A stretch of DNA of 32,881 nt from a virus. Location of the stretch: positions 1-32,881 of IMG/VR virus record IMGVR_UViG_3300048446_000378. One strand, given 5' to 3'. A model generated the notes under the pieces. That model ran no database searches and was not told the origin of the DNA. It saw only the letters and a list, made by a program, of their open reading frames with translations. The position numbers and the translations under genes are program-made. Positions 5,597-12,332 of the stretch are shown in pieces (the stretch's first letter is position 1; every line of letters begins with the position of its first letter).

Positions 5597-5644
5597 CAGT
5601 GGCCTGCGGAGTTCCGGTGAACGGTTCCGTGGGCCACTGTTTTT
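5597..5644 (+). terminator. Intrinsic terminator after capsid genes
   Basis: CAGTGGCC (5597-5604) pairs with GGCCACTG (5632-5639), with inner pairing CGGA/TCCG (5607-5610 with 5626-5629) and CCG/CGG near the loop, and a T-tract at 5640-5644. It would end or attenuate the scaffold-capsid-decoration transcript before the terminase genes, helping keep capsid protein levels above packaging enzyme levels. Confidence 0.85.
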
Positions 5645-5646
5645 AT

Positions 5647-6312
5647 ATGACACAAAAAACAAAAACATGTTCGATATGCGGTCTTGTCTACCCAGAAGAT
5701 AAACAGCACTTTCGTAATAGAGTGCAGGGAGGCAAGCAGTATTGGTCGGCAGAGTGCCGGAAGTGTCGTGCAAAACAAGACGCTGCCAGTAATCTCCGCA
5801 AGAAAGAAAAGCGGGAGAAAGCACTAGGCAAGATTGAACACGACGGCGTTGGGTTGTTTATGAAAGCTATCCAAAAGGGTGGCTCCAATATCCCACACTC
5901 CGCTGAGTTAATAGAGCAGATGATGAACTACTTTGGTGGAGTAGGTGGATTCTCCGCTGTCATGGTCAAGCAATACTGGGACTCTGACCCGGGTGGCACA
6001 CAAAGAAGTAAGCTGCTCGAAACTATGTGCCGGTTAGTCCAAAAGAACGTAGAGCAGGGTGGGGCCAAGAAGCCCTTGGCTCTATGGTCTGAAGAAGAAC
6101 TCGAAGAAGAGCTTAATGCACGTATTCAAAATGCGTTCACCATCGTCCAAGGAGAGGTAGAAAATGGCGAAGAAGAAGGTAGCCAAAAAAACATCGAGGC
6201 GAAAGCATCCGGCACGGAAGCCGAAACAACTACCGACAGTCCCGGTGATGTCGGAGTTCCAAAAAGACGCAATAAGAGAACTACAAAGCGAAATAAAAGA
6301 TCGTCAGCTTGA
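5647..6312 (+). CDS. terS: Probable terminase small subunit with N-terminal zinc finger
   Basis: ATG 5647 is preferred to an in-frame GTG at 5599 because 5599 lies inside the terminator stem. The product has 221 aa. An N-terminal CxxC-25-CxxC cluster (Cys 8, 11, 37, 40) with many Lys/Arg forms a zinc-finger-like DNA-binding module; residues 84-165 are helical (HSAELIEQMMNYFGG, then RSKLLETMCRLVQKN and PLALWSEEELEEELNARI), as in small terminase cores. The last 49 residues, acidic then strongly basic (PKRRNKRTTKRNKR), are read in a frame that overlaps the start of the large subunit. Position directly before terL and helical content support terS; sequence alone does not prove it. TerS recognises phage DNA and controls the motor. 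Confidence 0.75.
   Translation: MTQKTKTCSICGLVYPEDKQHFRNRVQGGKQYWSAECRKCRAKQDAASNLRKKEKREKALGKIEHDGVGLFMKAIQKGGSNIPHSAELIEQMMNYFGGVGGFSAVMVKQYWDSDPGGTQRSKLLETMCRLVQKNVEQGGAKKPLALWSEEELEEELNARIQNAFTIVQGEVENGEEEGSQKNIEAKASGTEAETTTDSPGDVGVPKRRNKRTTKRNKRSSA
6149..6154 (+). promoter_or_regulatory. Shine-Dalgarno that fixes the TerL start
   Basis: AAGGAG at 6149-6154 lies nine bases before ATG 6164, inside the small terminase gene. The next in-frame ATG (6248) has no such site. This supports a genuine long overlap between the two terminase genes rather than a mis-called start. Confidence 0.75.
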
Positions 6313-7891
6313 GGCACTGCGTCTATATACTCCCAACACCAACCAAGAAAAGATACACCAAACGCCAGCCAGTGAAGTCCTAGTCATCGGTGGTAATAGA
6401 TCAGGCAAGTCATTATGTACATTTGTTGAAGACGCCAGAGCAGTCACAGGACAAGACCCTCATGACAAATACCCGAAAGAGAATGGTATCCTTGTTGTTG
6501 TGGGCAAGGATTGGAAACACATTGGACTTGTGTGCGTACCTTATCTCTTTAGGGAGGGTGCGTTTAGAATCATCAAGGACGAAGAAACGGGTGAGTGGCG
6601 ATCATACAATCCCGTTACCGACGAACATAGAAAAAAGGATACGAAACCTGCTCCGCCGCTAATACCCCCGCGAATGATCAAGAAAACTTCGTGGGTTCTC
6701 AAGTCTGCCAACTACATGCAGACTTGCACACTTACCAACGGGTGGGAGATACATTTCTTTTCCAGCGAAGGTGATCCGGTACAGGGCTTCCAAGCAGATA
6801 GAGTTCACATTGACGAAGATATAAACAACGAGCAATGGGTTCCTGAAATGCTCGCACGTATCGTAGACCGCAAGGGTAAGTTTACTTGGTCTGCTATGCC
6901 GCATTCTACTAACAATGCTCTGCTAGGCTTGAAAGAACGTGCCGACGCAAGTATGGAAGACTTAGGGGATAGCTCCTCTATTCAGCAATTTAAGTTGCGA
7001 TTCCTAGACAATCCATTCTTAGACTCTGAAGAGAAAAAGAAATCCATAGAACGGTGGTCTGCGGTTGGAGAAGACGTTCTTCGTATGCGAGCCGAAGGTG
7101 ATTTCATCACGGACTCGATACTGGTGTATCCGTCATTTGATATGCGAATACACGGAATGGATCGCTCTGAACTACCAGACGGCGGCATTGTTCCATCAAC
7201 ATGGACTCGATACTGTGCTATTGACCCGGGTCACGCAGTAACGGCAGTATTGTTCCTAGCAGTTCCACCGGACGAAAAGTTCTGGTTATGCTACGACCAG
7301 CTATATTTACGGCAGTGCAATGCTACTAAGTTTGGTAACGAGTTTGCAAAAAAGGTAGGGAACTCTCATTTCCACGCATTTATCATTGATGCTCATGGTG
7401 GACGATTGAGAGATATAGGCTCAGGTCGCTTGCCGTCTGAGCAGTACACAGAGCAGTTGCTCAAGCATGGAGTTAAGTCGCAAGTATCCGGTGCATCGTT
7501 TCTAGCTGGGTGTGATGACATATTGGCTCGTTGTGAAAGCACACGTATTTCCCTGCATATCAGGCCAGAAGGTACTCCTCAAATGAGGATTCTTGCAGGT
7601 GCTTGCCCAGACTTAGAGAGAGAACTCAAGCGGTACAGGAAACTTGTCAACCATATTGCAGGGGTCTCTGTGGTAACAGATAAGCCTAATACTAAGGGAG
7701 AATGCCATATTGCCCAGTGTATGGAATACCTAGCGGCATATAGGCCAAGCTATCACAAACCTCCCCCAACTTTCCAAGAAGAAGACCCTTGGTGGGTTAA
7801 ATGGCAAAAAGATAGAAAAAAGCGGCTGACAGACCAGCACGGGGCGTTCGTATATTTGGGGCCACAAGGAGATAGAAATGGCTCAAACTAG
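6164..7891 (+). CDS. terL: Terminase large subunit (packaging ATPase-nuclease)
   Basis: 575 aa. The N-terminal 50 residues, rich in Lys/Arg (MAKKKVAKK...), overlap terS. The ATPase domain shows a Walker A GGNRSGKS at residues 76-83, a Walker B strand ending VHIDED at 214-219 with the catalytic Asp-Glu pair, and a coupling segment TWSAMPHSTN at 241-250. The nuclease domain begins near 345 with CAIDPGH (Asp354), followed by FIIDAHGG (Asp409). At the place of the usual third metal ligand near residue 515 the sequence reads CHIAQCMEYL, with His rather than the common Asp. Length is normal. The protein drives DNA into the prohead through the portal and cuts concatemers. It ends 14 bases into the next gene. 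Confidence 0.96.
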   Translation: MAKKKVAKKTSRRKHPARKPKQLPTVPVMSEFQKDAIRELQSEIKDRQLEALRLYTPNTNQEKIHQTPASEVLVIGGNRSGKSLCTFVEDARAVTGQDPHDKYPKENGILVVVGKDWKHIGLVCVPYLFREGAFRIIKDEETGEWRSYNPVTDEHRKKDTKPAPPLIPPRMIKKTSWVLKSANYMQTCTLTNGWEIHFFSSEGDPVQGFQADRVHIDEDINNEQWVPEMLARIVDRKGKFTWSAMPHSTNNALLGLKERADASMEDLGDSSSIQQFKLRFLDNPFLDSEEKKKSIERWSAVGEDVLRMRAEGDFITDSILVYPSFDMRIHGMDRSELPDGGIVPSTWTRYCAIDPGHAVTAVLFLAVPPDEKFWLCYDQLYLRQCNATKFGNEFAKKVGNSHFHAFIIDAHGGRLRDIGSGRLPSEQYTEQLLKHGVKSQVSGASFLAGCDDILARCESTRISLHIRPEGTPQMRILAGACPDLERELKRYRKLVNHIAGVSVVTDKPNTKGECHIAQCMEYLAAYRPSYHKPPPTFQEEDPWWVKWQKDRKKRLTDQHGAFVYLGPQGDRNGSN

Positions 7892-8210
7892 CACCAAATC
7901 ATGGACGATGCCCCAGCCGAACATTGGCGACTGCGTTCTTTTCAGCAAGGACTACCGGGATTTCTCCAAGCCAACAGTTGGTTGGGTCATGCAAGAACCC
8001 GGGCATAAGACCATAAGTATTGTAACCTTCACGCCTTCAGGGTATTCCTTGGTATTCAATAGTTGCCACCACAAAGACGATCCGGCACTGAGCGAAGACA
8101 ACGGATGGCAAGACCTCGGCGTGTGGGACTTTGCACCTTCTACCAAGAAGATGCGGGAACTCACGAAGAAAAACGAGGCAACAAGTGCAGGAAAGTCTTC
8201 CTCAAAGTAA
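7878..8210 (+). CDS. Small beta-rich protein between terminase and portal, 110 aa
   Basis: ATG 7878 overlaps the end of terL by 14 bases, with AAGGAGA just upstream near 7867. The core, residues 14-85, alternates short strands and turns (IGDCVLFSKD, VGWVMQEPG, TISIVTFTP) and looks like a small SH3-like barrel; the C-terminal 25 residues are Lys/Ser rich and probably disordered. It overlaps the portal start by 26 bases. Small proteins of this sort between terL and portal occur in other phages, but I cannot give a function. A packaging or portal-assembly helper is a guess from position. Confidence 0.75.
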   Translation: MAQTSTKSWTMPQPNIGDCVLFSKDYRDFSKPTVGWVMQEPGHKTISIVTFTPSGYSLVFNSCHHKDDPALSEDNGWQDLGVWDFAPSTKKMRELTKKNEATSAGKSSSK

Positions 8211-10248
8211 TCCGCTTAGGCAAGTAGTCCAGACGTGGGTTAAAAAACTAAAGGCAGCAGAAGCATACAAAAAGCCATTTAACGACGACGCTAAAGAAGC
8301 CTGTTCGTTTTATGACGGAGACCACAACTGGATGTGGAAAGATGCGTATGCACGGGGGGAACGGGGCTACAACTCATCTATAGCCCCGCCTTCTTTCCGT
8401 ATGCAACTCAATAAAGTATTTGAGTTAGTAGAGATATTTGCCAGCGTTATCTATCACCGAAACCCAGTGAGAACTGTATCGGTAATGGAATACCCGCAAA
8501 TACCGGGGGAGATAATGGGTTTGCCAGAAAACCCTGACCCAACGCAAGAGGTGACGCCTGAGCAGCAGCAGTTGATTGGTGTTGTTGCAGCAGAGCTTGA
8601 ACAAAAGAAACAACGCAAGCTAGGTGCTGAACTACTTGAGCACTACCTTAATTGGACACCCGTTGAATTAGACCTAAAGCGACAGGCTCGCATGGTTGTC
8701 AATGAAGCAATGATAAAGGGTGCTGGCGTGTTCTGGACTGAGATGATAGTAGCTGACACTACTGCCGACTCCCAGATGCCGCCGATGAAGATGGTTGGTA
8801 GTTTCTACGACACGATAGATAATCTTCTTGTAGACCCCGACTTCGACAACGCAGACGACCAGTTGTGGTGTGCTCGCAAGATGGTTCGACCTATCACGGA
8901 GGTAGCCGAACAATACGGAATACCTGTAGAAACCTTAGAGAAGCATTACGACAAAGAAACGCCTACGTTACAAAGGCAGCCAAAAGACAAGAAGAAAAAA
9001 GACGGAACGAACAAGCTCATTACGTTCTATAAGATTTGGAGCAAGACCGGAATGGGCGACAGGTTGAAGGACGCCCCAAAAGAAAACAAAGGTGTCTTCG
9101 ACCCTCTTGGCAAGTATGCCTATCTTGTTGTGTGTGAAGGTGTTCCCTATCCGCTTAACGTCCCACCCGAAGTATTAGAAGAGGAGGTCAACGAAGAAAC
9201 TGGTTTGCCAGATAGCCTGCTTACCAGAACCGCTTGGCCTATTCCTTTCTATGCTGACCCACAAGGGTGGCCCTACACGATGCTCGCTTTCCACAGAAAG
9301 CCGGGGTATAGCTGGCCTATTAGCCACATACGCCCTGCAATCGGCGAGTTGAGACTATTGAACTGGTGCTTCTCATTCCTTGCTACAAGGATTGCAACAT
9401 CCTGCGAAACAGTTGTTGCAGTGACAAAGGCAGCAGACCAAGACATTAAAGAGCAGTTGCTTGCTCCATCTGAAGGTGGCTTCAAGATAATTGAATTGTC
9501 TGAGCTACTAGGCAGAAGAGTAGAAGACATTGTATCCGTATTCCAAATGCCCCCCGTCACCAAAGACCTTTGGGATATTATCAGTGCGATACTAGATCAG
9601 TTTGCACAACGAACCGGCCTGTCAGAACTCGTATATGGCTACACCCGTTCTCAGTTTAGAAGTGCTGCGGAAGCGACAATTAAAAACGAGAACATTAGCA
9701 TCAGGCCAGACAATATGGCTAACGAGTTAGAAGACACCATGTCTCTACTTGCTAGGCGAGAAGCACTTGCTGCAAGATGGTTACTAGAGCCAGTAGACGT
9801 TGCTCCTGTCATTGGGCCTCTAGGGGCAGCAGGATGGCAGCAGACTATTAACAGCGTAGACATCGTTGCTCTTACGAGAGACTTCTTGTTTAGGATCGAA
9901 GCAGGCTCTGCTCGTAAGCCAAATAAGGCAACTCGTGTAGAACAAATGCAAATGTCAGTTCAGACCCTCGGCCCAATACTTTCGCAGTTGGTCGGTGCTG
10001 GTATGCCCGGGCCTTTCAATGCACTCATGAGTGATTGGGCTGATTCGCTAGATATTGACCCAACGCCGTACCTTGTTCCACCTCCACCTCCACCTCCAAC
10101 AGAACCACCAATGCCTCCGGGCGCACCAATGCCTCCCGACGCACCCCCTCCTCCTCAGCAGCGGCTCCCCGGTACACCCTCCCCGGGAGAGCGCGCGGAG
10201 GATGGGGCAGAAGAATTACCTCAAGTTCCGCAAGAGCTTAATCCGTAG
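8185..10248 (+). CDS. Portal protein
   Basis: GTG 8185 (VQESLPQSNPL...) is preferred; a TTG at 8131 would add 18 residues from within the previous gene. The 687-residue length is typical of podovirus portals. Near the N-terminus is an amphipathic helix (WVKKLKAAEAYKKPF), then a DGDHNWMWKD segment and a long helix with RMQLNKVFELVEIFAS, matching the portal pattern of an N-terminal strand followed by a helix preceding the wing. A central region carries loops with AILDQFAQRTGLSEL and RSAAEATIKNEN, typical of the stem-clip helices. The C-terminus has a proline run at about residues 631-638 and ends acidic. The dodecameric ring is the DNA channel for packaging and ejection. Confidence 0.9.
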   Translation: MQESLPQSNPLRQVVQTWVKKLKAAEAYKKPFNDDAKEACSFYDGDHNWMWKDAYARGERGYNSSIAPPSFRMQLNKVFELVEIFASVIYHRNPVRTVSVMEYPQIPGEIMGLPENPDPTQEVTPEQQQLIGVVAAELEQKKQRKLGAELLEHYLNWTPVELDLKRQARMVVNEAMIKGAGVFWTEMIVADTTADSQMPPMKMVGSFYDTIDNLLVDPDFDNADDQLWCARKMVRPITEVAEQYGIPVETLEKHYDKETPTLQRQPKDKKKKDGTNKLITFYKIWSKTGMGDRLKDAPKENKGVFDPLGKYAYLVVCEGVPYPLNVPPEVLEEEVNEETGLPDSLLTRTAWPIPFYADPQGWPYTMLAFHRKPGYSWPISHIRPAIGELRLLNWCFSFLATRIATSCETVVAVTKAADQDIKEQLLAPSEGGFKIIELSELLGRRVEDIVSVFQMPPVTKDLWDIISAILDQFAQRTGLSELVYGYTRSQFRSAAEATIKNENISIRPDNMANELEDTMSLLARREALAARWLLEPVDVAPVIGPLGAAGWQQTINSVDIVALTRDFLFRIEAGSARKPNKATRVEQMQMSVQTLGPILSQLVGAGMPGPFNALMSDWADSLDIDPTPYLVPPPPPPPTEPPMPPGAPMPPDAPPPPQQRLPGTPSPGERAEDGAEELPQVPQELNP
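10078..10164 (+). repeat. Polyproline-coding low-complexity tract in portal gene
   Basis: CCACCT units repeat from about 10078, giving seven consecutive prolines, then MPPGAPMPPDAPPPP. The tract is in frame with the portal and makes an extended, exposed tail, either outside the ring or at the crown. Translation through seven prolines would usually need EF-P. Confidence 0.8.
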
Positions 10249-10769
10249 TGTCACCCAGTAAGTGGCGGAGAAACAAAGAGCAACAGTTTGAAAACAACCT
10301 CAAGAACCGTTACGGAATTACGGTTGAGGAATACAACAAACTCGTTCTAGAGTCCAAGAACAAATGCCAGATATGCGGGAAAAAATGCAACCGACTCGTA
10401 ATAGACCATTGTCACAATAGCAACAAGATTCGGGGTATGCTTTGCCAGCAGTGTAACTCAGGCATTGGATTCCTCGGCGACTGCCCAAGAAGATTGGAAC
10501 TAGCCCTTGAGTACCTCAAACGACCTACCCTTCGACATACAAGACGCACCAAGGTCAGTTCAAAAAGCATACATCGAGATGATCGAAAACGATGTGCCTC
10601 CAAGAATGGCAGAAATGCTCGCCCTGCAACAGCCCCCCGGCGTAAAAGGAGGGGACAGGGCGTTCATGGAAGGGAGGTACAACAACCAGCAGTTCGACAA
10701 GATGCCGAAGGATCACGCCCAGAACATCATAACACTCGCAAAAAGAGCAGGAATAAATCCAAGCGGTAA
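10248..10769 (+). CDS. Endonuclease VII-type HNH endonuclease
   Basis: GTG 10248 shares its first base with the last base of the portal TAG. Residues 20-90 match the recombination endonuclease VII family: YGITVEEYNKLV, zinc ligands CQIC (Cys40, Cys43) and CQQC (Cys66, Cys69), and the catalytic LVIDHCH (Asp53, His54, His56) followed by KIRGMLCQQCNSGIGFLGD. The family usually ends at the helix seen here as LALEYLKR. The further 83 residues are an Arg-rich, low-information tail (RRKRRGQG) read in a frame that overlaps the next gene by 263 bases, so the original end was probably lost. It may resolve branched DNA before packaging or act as a mobile free-standing endonuclease; the sequence does not decide. 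Confidence 0.88.
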   Translation: MSPSKWRRNKEQQFENNLKNRYGITVEEYNKLVLESKNKCQICGKKCNRLVIDHCHNSNKIRGMLCQQCNSGIGFLGDCPRRLELALEYLKRPTLRHTRRTKVSSKSIHRDDRKRCASKNGRNARPATAPRRKRRGQGVHGREVQQPAVRQDAEGSRPEHHNTRKKSRNKSKR

Positions 10770-11058
10770 GTATTATTGTGCCGGTCTTGCCGATGGTCGC
10801 GGCGTCCAAGACCCAGCAGCATGGGTAGACGGTGCTGGAGATGTGAAAAAAGTAGCTGAAGTTCGCAACCTGACAGTAGACGGTGCTGTTCAGCACAAAG
10901 GGAGACCACAGCCTAGGCCAAAGAGCGTCAGGTTAAGCGAAAAGCTGACAAAAGAAATGATGAACGTCGAGAAAAAGCGTAAGCCGACCATGAAAAAAGA
11001 AGAGCTACGTGAGTATGTAACTGAAAAATACGGTCGCAGGAAAAAGCCAAACGAATGA
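10507..11058 (+). CDS. Unknown phage protein between portal and adaptor, 183 aa
   Basis: TTG 10507 is the earliest start; ATG 10579 is an alternative that removes 24 residues. The first 88 codons overlap the endonuclease gene in another frame, and the better-conserved-looking protein sequence is this one: LPFDIQDAPRSVQKAYIEMI, ALQQPPGVKGGDRAFMEG, then KYYCAGLADGRGVQDPAAWV and a basic C-terminal helix (KLTKEMMNVEKKRK, REYVTEKYGRRKK). The frame ends in an ATGA overlap with the adaptor gene. Function unknown; the position suggests a head-completion or packaging role. The unusual TTG start fits a gene whose 5' end was disturbed by the endonuclease gene. Confidence 0.75.
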   Translation: MSTSNDLPFDIQDAPRSVQKAYIEMIENDVPPRMAEMLALQQPPGVKGGDRAFMEGRYNNQQFDKMPKDHAQNIITLAKRAGINPSGKYYCAGLADGRGVQDPAAWVDGAGDVKKVAEVRNLTVDGAVQHKGRPQPRPKSVRLSEKLTKEMMNVEKKRKPTMKKEELREYVTEKYGRRKKPNE

Positions 11059-12332
11059 ATACTGCACAAGATTTAGTAGCACACTTGCTTGCGAGCACTG
11101 GGGGAGGTGCTCAGGACGGGGAACATCAGGCTGTACGACATGCCGTCATCAGTGGCGTCCGCGAAGTCATGCAATGTAGGGATTGGCTTTGGCATGAAAA
11201 GATGGGTTCTTTTTCTACGAAGACCCCGACTACACAGGCAAAGATGGTGGCAGGCAATGATATTATCAGTGTCTCAGACGCCACGTACTTTGCTCCCGGC
11301 AGGATAGTGCAGTTCCCTAAAGGCACGTTCAAGAGTCCTGCTCGCGTTAAGGCCGTCAATGGTAATTTTATTACACTGAATCAGGCTCCTAAAAGCAGTG
11401 GCGACAGTGTGACAGTCAAGCCGCAAGTTTACTACGACCTGCCAGAAGACCTTCACAATATCGGAACTCTCAAGACAAATACCGTTGGCACGTTGCATTG
11501 CAGGATAAGCCCTACTGAATGGCAGCAGCTTGAGATAAATACAGACGGATCAGGTGAACCTTATTACTACACAGTCATGAGGTCTGACCAGAATCCAGAC
11601 AGATACCAAATACGATTTGTAGGCGTACCAGCCGATGACGTAATTGTTCATTACGTTTACAGAGTAACGCCAAAACCCATAAAGTATTTTGGTTACGAAC
11701 GGATATGCCGAGAAGGAACGGTTCAGATGGCACAAAATGCCACTGACAAAAAGATGTATGTCACTGGAACAGGGACTAGCTTCCCTCAAGATTGTGCTGC
11801 GGCATACATTCGGTTCGGTGCAGACGGATACCCAGCCGACCCCATAGGATCGACGGTTCCATTTATCATGGAGCGACGTATACAAGAATGGAAATCTGCA
11901 ACAAGCCTATGCGTAAGTGATAACACAGTTTACGAGCGACCGGGGCCAGACGGGATATACGAAACAGAATCGTTTGATGCAGGCAACGCAGCACTTCTGC
12001 CCCCTCCAACTGTGTCCGAGGAAAACCCTCCAACAGTTTCGACAGACTACGACGAACCTAATACCCCAATACCAGCACTTACAAAATACGCAATTACGGA
12101 TGTTATTAACTCATCCCCGCACATGTGGACAGCAATCCTGTCAGGTGTCGAAATGTGGTACGCACGTATTGCAGGAAAACCTGCGGACGTAGCTATGGCA
12201 ATGTTTAACAGAGACCTTCGCCTTGCTATGGAGGCCGACGTAGTAACGCCTATGACCGGCCTTTTCCACAATGCTTATCCAACCCCAAGGTCAATGGGAT
12301 GGCAGTCTTCGCTTCTGCCTGATAATGAATGA
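11055..12332 (+). CDS. Probable head-to-tail adaptor protein
   Basis: ATG 11055 overlaps the preceding TGA (ATGA). The 425-residue product starts with a helical region (ATG to about residue 50: AQDLVAHLLA, HAVISGVREVMQCRDWLWH), followed by beta-rich sequence with YYDLPEDLHNIGTL and RYQIRFVGVPADDVIVHYVYRV, patterns common in podovirus adaptor or tail tubular A proteins that bind the portal and pass contact to the nozzle. The C-terminus is helical (MWTAILSGVEMWYARIAGKP, AMAMFNRDLRLAMEAD), again typical. About 120 residues of loop sequence in the middle (residues 235-345) exceed the minimal fold. Directly downstream is the nozzle, the expected partner. Family membership is inferred from pattern and place. 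Confidence 0.78.
   Translation: MNTAQDLVAHLLASTGGGAQDGEHQAVRHAVISGVREVMQCRDWLWHEKMGSFSTKTPTTQAKMVAGNDIISVSDATYFAPGRIVQFPKGTFKSPARVKAVNGNFITLNQAPKSSGDSVTVKPQVYYDLPEDLHNIGTLKTNTVGTLHCRISPTEWQQLEINTDGSGEPYYYTVMRSDQNPDRYQIRFVGVPADDVIVHYVYRVTPKPIKYFGYERICREGTVQMAQNATDKKMYVTGTGTSFPQDCAAAYIRFGADGYPADPIGSTVPFIMERRIQEWKSATSLCVSDNTVYERPGPDGIYETESFDAGNAALLPPPTVSEENPPTVSTDYDEPNTPIPALTKYAITDVINSSPHMWTAILSGVEMWYARIAGKPADVAMAMFNRDLRLAMEADVVTPMTGLFHNAYPTPRSMGWQSSLLPDNE

Follow-up and report, generated by a model that had tools for sequence, protein, structure and literature searches.

An endonuclease VII gene at the portal junction of an uncultivated phage lineage runs on into an alternate-frame tail apparently kept open by selection

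Endonuclease VII of phage T4, the product of gene 49, is a Holliday-junction resolvase that is bound at the portal and required for DNA-full heads (T4 packaging review, PMC10893049). Phage nucleases may also behave as mobile genes: the HNH homing endonucleases of lactococcal Skunavirus occupy a fixed junction in some phages, are missing from it in others, and are exchanged between relatives (PMC12724721). Long same-strand gene overlaps, for their part, are usually explained without selection for the overlap, since neutral models require none and instead invoke selection against overlaps longer than 60 bp (PMC2542354, PMC3887535). The window analyzed here, a stretch of viral DNA of 32,881 nucleotides (positions 1 to 32,881 of IMG/VR record IMGVR_UViG_3300048446_000378), carries an endonuclease VII gene seated between the portal gene and a downstream gene, with a reading frame that continues far into the latter. 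The features at this junction are the following.

8197..10248, + strand: portal protein gene; the start is not settled, the frame being open from a TTG at 8131
10246..10250, + strand: TAGTG, in which the portal stop overlaps the GTG start of the endonuclease
10248..10769, + strand: endonuclease VII ORF, 173 aa, GTG start; nuclease domain plus overprinted tail
10293..10520, + strand: Endonuclease_7 domain (PF02945), Pfam match, residues 16-91
10507..10769, + strand: dual-coding region of 263 bp, the overlap of both ORFs
10507..11058, + strand: downstream gene, 183 aa, TTG start; adjoins the portal gene in carriers and in endonuclease-free relatives
10527..10766, + strand: alternate-frame C-terminal tail, ~80 aa, Arg-rich, stop-free, predicted to be disordered (ORF, stop test and structure model)
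11055..12332, + strand: next gene, weak match to phrog_6005 (virion structural family), in ATGA overlap with the downstream gene

The portal assignment rests on a weak PHROG match (phrog_156, E=1.4e-4), and relatives of this protein are 62-93% identical; in most carriers of the endonuclease TAATG, TGATG or xTGA equivalents replace TAGTG. An earlier note on this DNA had described the overlap from the TTG at 10507, and both ORFs were reproduced, the endonuclease matching PF02945 at 73.5 bits against a cut-off of 23.6 (E=1.3e-20, profile positions 2-81 of 82). Beyond the domain end at ALEYLKR another ~80 residues follow in frame before the TAA at 10767-10769; the 83 extra residues given in the earlier note agree with the count from the conserved YL, and 80 are counted from the last matched domain residue. 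Endonuclease codons begin at the third base of downstream-gene codons, so that the tail is read, as the note had it, in the alternate frame of that gene.

Could the overlap be a product of annotation? The downstream frame opens at 10504, and the TTG at 10507, preceded at 8 nt by a weak ribosome-binding site (GGA), is the earliest codon in it that could serve as a start. Starting at the next ATG, 10579, would delete part of what 25 relatives conserve, since conservation among them begins at residue 8, itself invariant, and the nearest relative (L039) has the identical start, TTGAGTACCTC. The downstream start therefore cannot lie after 10769, an alternative that the earlier note had raised against its own overlap, and the overlap cannot be put down to annotation. 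A scan of the junction revealed no outstanding sigma-70-like promoter or forward-strand terminator.

The nuclease domain is well conserved in its functional residues. C40, C43, C66 and C69, the zinc Cys4 set, together with D53, H54 and H56 of the D-H-x-H motif and the Asn N70, are invariant in 29 relatives; the active-site residues presumably correspond to D40/H41/H43/N62 of the T4 enzyme. A structure model is confident for this domain and gives pLDDT of ~50 for the tail, which is accordingly predicted to be disordered, and tails searched alone against PHROGs matched no family at E<=0.001. The downstream protein matches no Pfam or PHROGs family, and its model has no convincing fold match in the PDB.

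Searches of viral contigs with the portal and downstream proteins as queries supplied the relatives. The downstream protein has ~460 relatives in viral contigs, 80 of them listed, and related contigs reach ~62 kb. Nucleotide and protein searches of 50,697 phage records yielded no relative of the portal, the junction or the downstream gene, so this lineage is wholly uncultivated. The sole bacterial-genome matches of the downstream protein, L236 and L237, lie on small contigs in Pirellulaceae and Prosthecobacter MAGs, which hints weakly at hosts among the planctomycetes or Verrucomicrobia, given that the binning of phage contigs is unreliable.

At less than 95% identity the relatives comprise 29 carriers, in which an endonuclease VII gene fills the exact junction of portal and downstream gene, and 23 endonuclease-free phages in which these two genes overlap by ATGA or nearly abut. 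The earlier note's placement of the endonuclease between the two genes, and its expectation that some relatives would lack it there, are thus borne out. With 13 carriers found later, the non-redundant total, the window included, is 42. All 42 have the endonuclease at this junction in the identical frame relative to the downstream gene, and in all of them its ORF extends 42-171 residues beyond the conserved YL; in seven the tail is only 42-58 residues long. At 36 unrelated loci the endonuclease VII frame closes within 1-23 residues of the matched domain (one being clipped by a contig end), and it also closes shortly after the domain in four genes that endonuclease-free phages of the group carry at other places. 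Mapped on the portal tree, presence and absence of the endonuclease call for three changes, each on a well-supported branch. A single gain at the root of a 37-member clade, followed by losses in L083/L086 and in L088-L097, would account for them; this polarity is drawn from a midpoint root and from where the basal phages fall, three gains being formally possible as well. The endonuclease-free sites of L083 and L088 show a plain ATGA overlap of portal and downstream gene.

A frame shared by every carrier bears directly on the history proposed in the earlier note, which saw here a snapshot of intrusion: an inserted endonuclease that lost its stop and captured an alternate-frame tail. On that reading the event would be recent and the tail an accidental, neutral read-through. 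Several considerations favor such a history. The sequence of the tail drifts freely, an upstream stop in this phase cannot coincide with ATG, GTG or TTG, and neutral models do expect long overlaps (PMC3887535). However, an overlap common to 42 of 42 carriers, with site, frame and at least 42 open residues shared, is not what a recent event in one genome would leave, and were the read-through neutral, stops should be as frequent as in the background.

This prediction can be examined because in this phase a T at the third position of a downstream codon, when followed by AA, AG or GA, creates an endonuclease-frame stop, and a synonymous codon avoids each such case. Stops were counted against a null in which the downstream protein is kept and codons are drawn from each phage's own context-dependent usage, from 25 codons before to 30 after an anchor (GGDRAFMEGR, starting at residue 48 of the window's downstream protein), an interval covering roughly the first 75-80 downstream codons. 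Carriers show 7 stops where 61.1 are expected, a depletion of about nine-fold that 0 of 1000 simulations reach, although all comparisons come from metagenomic contigs whose sequences are related, so that counts are not fully independent and significance is inflated. Clustering at 80% identity, which leaves 21 carriers, does not change the depletion, and the 13 previously unseen carriers, an independent set, have 9 stops against 28.2 expected (0/500 simulations). The overlap of the window itself has none, against ~4.5 expected from the downstream protein and local codon usage. Before the anchor, codons ending in T make up 1/173 in pooled carriers where the T creates a stop versus 74/597 elsewhere; in endonuclease-free phages the corresponding figures are 8/77 and 59/340.

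Two endonuclease-free groups show no such depletion: the 15 basal endonuclease-free phages have 17 stops against 21.6 expected, and L083/L086, which apparently lost the gene, have 13 against 9.1. L088-L097 have 1 against 5.3 (about 2% of simulations are as low) and may still bear the imprint of a gene lost more recently. In carriers, depletion fades about 30 codons beyond the anchor, the point at which most tails stop (next bins 17 vs 19.7 and 18 vs 16.7); at 58-80 codons it is partial (15 vs 31.8) and may be due in part to long-tailed carriers. Because each of the avoidable stops is synonymous for the downstream protein, and they are nevertheless depleted in carriers, these codon comparisons show the tail frame to be kept stop-free by what appears to be selection against truncation. 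On the comparative evidence the overlap is old and maintained across the group and is no recent accident. A recent lost-stop event is refuted by the 42 of 42 carriers together with the stop depletion, and a neutral tail is scarcely credible. What may survive of the recent intrusion concerns the nuclease domain alone, considered below, and not the overlap.

While the frame is held open, its residues are not. Between the window and L039, 36/72 tail residues differ against only 8/73 downstream residues, the drift that the earlier note had allowed for. Across independent carrier pairs, identity at downstream fourfold sites is 61% over the whole overlap and 59% beyond it, with one 20-codon stretch of the overlap somewhat higher at 68%; no conservation of the tail beyond what the downstream gene dictates is seen in this comparison. 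The first 25 tail residues carry a modest excess of Arg and Lys, for which a charge-selection test is only suggestive. The openness of the tail thus appears to be selected and its residue sequence not detectably so, with at most its general composition constrained, the pattern expected of a flexible spacer or a bulk-charge tail. The earlier note had held that a tail conserved in length and sequence would speak against its reading; presence and a minimum length are indeed conserved, and sequence is not.

Stops might, however, be avoided for the sake of translation rather than of the tail. In this main rival to a selected tail, ribosomes translating the endonuclease open the downstream start, or must not terminate inside the gene, and the tail is a by-product. 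The downstream start does sit inside the endonuclease frame behind a weak ribosome-binding site in the window, and coupled translation of adjacent phage genes is common. But the depletion reaches ~75 codons into the downstream gene, far beyond any initiation region, and the portal frame terminates at or beside the endonuclease start, so termination near starts is tolerated in these phages; we consider the translational explanation unlikely. A related proposal, that the frame stays open up to a site of +1 ribosomal frameshifting that yields an endonuclease-downstream fusion, is very unlikely. A +1 shift from the endonuclease frame does reach the downstream frame, and a shift site ~30 codons beyond the anchor would explain why stops are avoided as far as that boundary. 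Yet no conserved slippery site came to notice in passing, fourfold-site conservation, at the resolution used, gives no sign of a strong local element, and in the seven short-tailed carriers the frame already closes 42-58 residues past the domain.

The nuclease domain has a more mobile history than its tail. L046 and L053 have portals that are 96% identical and flanking DNA that is mostly 85-97% identical, while the DNA of their nuclease domains is only 51-75% identical by segment; identity breaks at the endonuclease start codon and returns at the downstream N-terminus. The domain is thereby shown, as a matter of sequence, to have been swapped between close relatives, evidently as a cassette from the portal stop to the downstream start, and the tail stays in place through the swap because the neighboring downstream gene encodes it. 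The window and L039 present a similar pattern (42% amino acid identity in the endonuclease domain against 89% in the portal), although here rapid divergence is harder to exclude. An origin of the window's domain outside the clade is unsupported, the best outside and inside matches scoring 85.9 and 86.3 bits, and the resolution of the endonuclease tree does not suffice to prove any individual transfer.

Is the endonuclease then a homing-type mobile gene that entered the portal/downstream junction, its tail reflecting the joining of the cassette? Presence and absence with intact empty sites, and sharp-bordered exchange at one site between relatives, are both found here, as in phage HNH homing (PMC12724721). 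Against this, every carrier record tested has exactly one PF02945 gene, and among the endonuclease-free records G001, G002, G003 and G006 have an endonuclease VII elsewhere (the remainder, which may be incomplete, have none), as would befit a single resolvase that is needed; moreover, the active-site residues are invariant across an old clade. Homing chiefly contests a resolvase role and is compatible with a selected tail, and while it is the least improbable of the alternatives, we do not expect it to hold. In L153-L156, which stand for endonuclease VII genes elsewhere in endonuclease-free phages of this kind, the ORFs close shortly after the domain, and those of L153 and L154 have repeated CxxC zinc-finger motifs N-terminal to it.

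The reading that we prefer, with a probability of roughly 0.6, is that of a packaging or recombination resolvase seated at the portal whose disordered C-terminal tail is overprinted and under selection. The invariant active-site and zinc residues, the structure matches to Hpy99I and T4 endonuclease VII and the portal role of the T4 enzyme (PMC10893049) suggest that the clade's endonuclease VII probably acts as a Holliday-junction or branch resolvase around genome packaging, from a gene seated at the portal/downstream junction. Its minimal nuclease domain lacks a stop of its own, the protein running on for at least ~42 and usually ~80 residues in the alternate frame, and the swapped domains are joined to one and the same tail encoded by the neighbor. 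The tail, presumably translated, could be a flexible basic extension that aids branched-DNA binding by a small domain or docking to the portal and packaging machine, and might take the place of the C-terminal domain that the T4 enzyme has. Tails of 42-58 aa in several carriers imply that not all 80 residues are needed. The existence and maintenance of the tail have support in the codon comparisons; the job assigned to it is a guess.

A second overlap in the window has the same phase.

5599/5650-6312: TerS-like gene, overlapping TerL
6164-7891: TerL; the TerS-like overlap is 6164-6312, 149 bp, in the phase of the endonuclease/downstream overlap

Among 36 clade members, TerS-frame stops are depleted over the N-terminal codons of TerL (2 vs 30.2 and 7 vs 28.3), and most TerS ORFs close six codons before the Walker A motif of TerL; in basal phages the overlap is short or absent and mostly in another phase. 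The lineage thus carries at least two such stop-depleted overlaps. A tentative generalization, which we hold at somewhat less than even odds, is that it keeps the disordered tails of packaging-module proteins, endonuclease VII and the TerS-like protein, by selection on length or bulk composition alone, each in an alternate frame over the gene that follows, such that an exchangeable enzyme domain takes its tail from whatever gene it comes to lie next to. The protein at the TerS position (5599-6312) also has an N-terminal CxxC...CxxC zinc-finger-like segment, and it is this segment that weakly matches the HNH/endonuclease VII families phrog_2255 and phrog_1035.

A literature search did not find this arrangement described. 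The 42 carriers, the free relatives with their apparent losses and the domain-swap pair form a natural experiment that separates selection on an open frame from selection on sequence, the frame remaining open as residues drift. The case they make for a disordered, overprinted tail is clean and can be put to the test, as is that for an exchanged nuclease domain supplied with its tail by the neighbor, and gene callers that trim such overlaps would mis-annotate these proteins.

Among known systems, T4 endonuclease VII (PDB 1e7l, 1en7, 2qnf) shares the domain family, the zinc Cys4 and the D-H-x-H/N active site. The profile covers only T4 residues 10-85 of 157, and the T4 C-terminal part beyond residue 85, a domain absent from the window protein, is unmatched; in its stead the window enzyme has a predicted disordered tail in the next gene's alternate frame. 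The C-terminal domain of Hpy99I (PDB 3fc3) is the top sequence match among solved structures (E=2e-9) and also the top fold match, but Hpy99I is a restriction enzyme of larger fold, with no overlap and no tail beyond the domain. The Skunavirus HNH enzymes likewise come and go at a fixed junction and are exchanged between relatives, whereas the window enzyme belongs to the endonuclease VII family, occurs once per genome, is of old residence and bears an overprinted tail. Finally, the overlap resembles those of the neutral models in being same-strand and in a phase where short overlaps form with difficulty and long ones prevail, and differs from them in that stops appear to be actively kept out.
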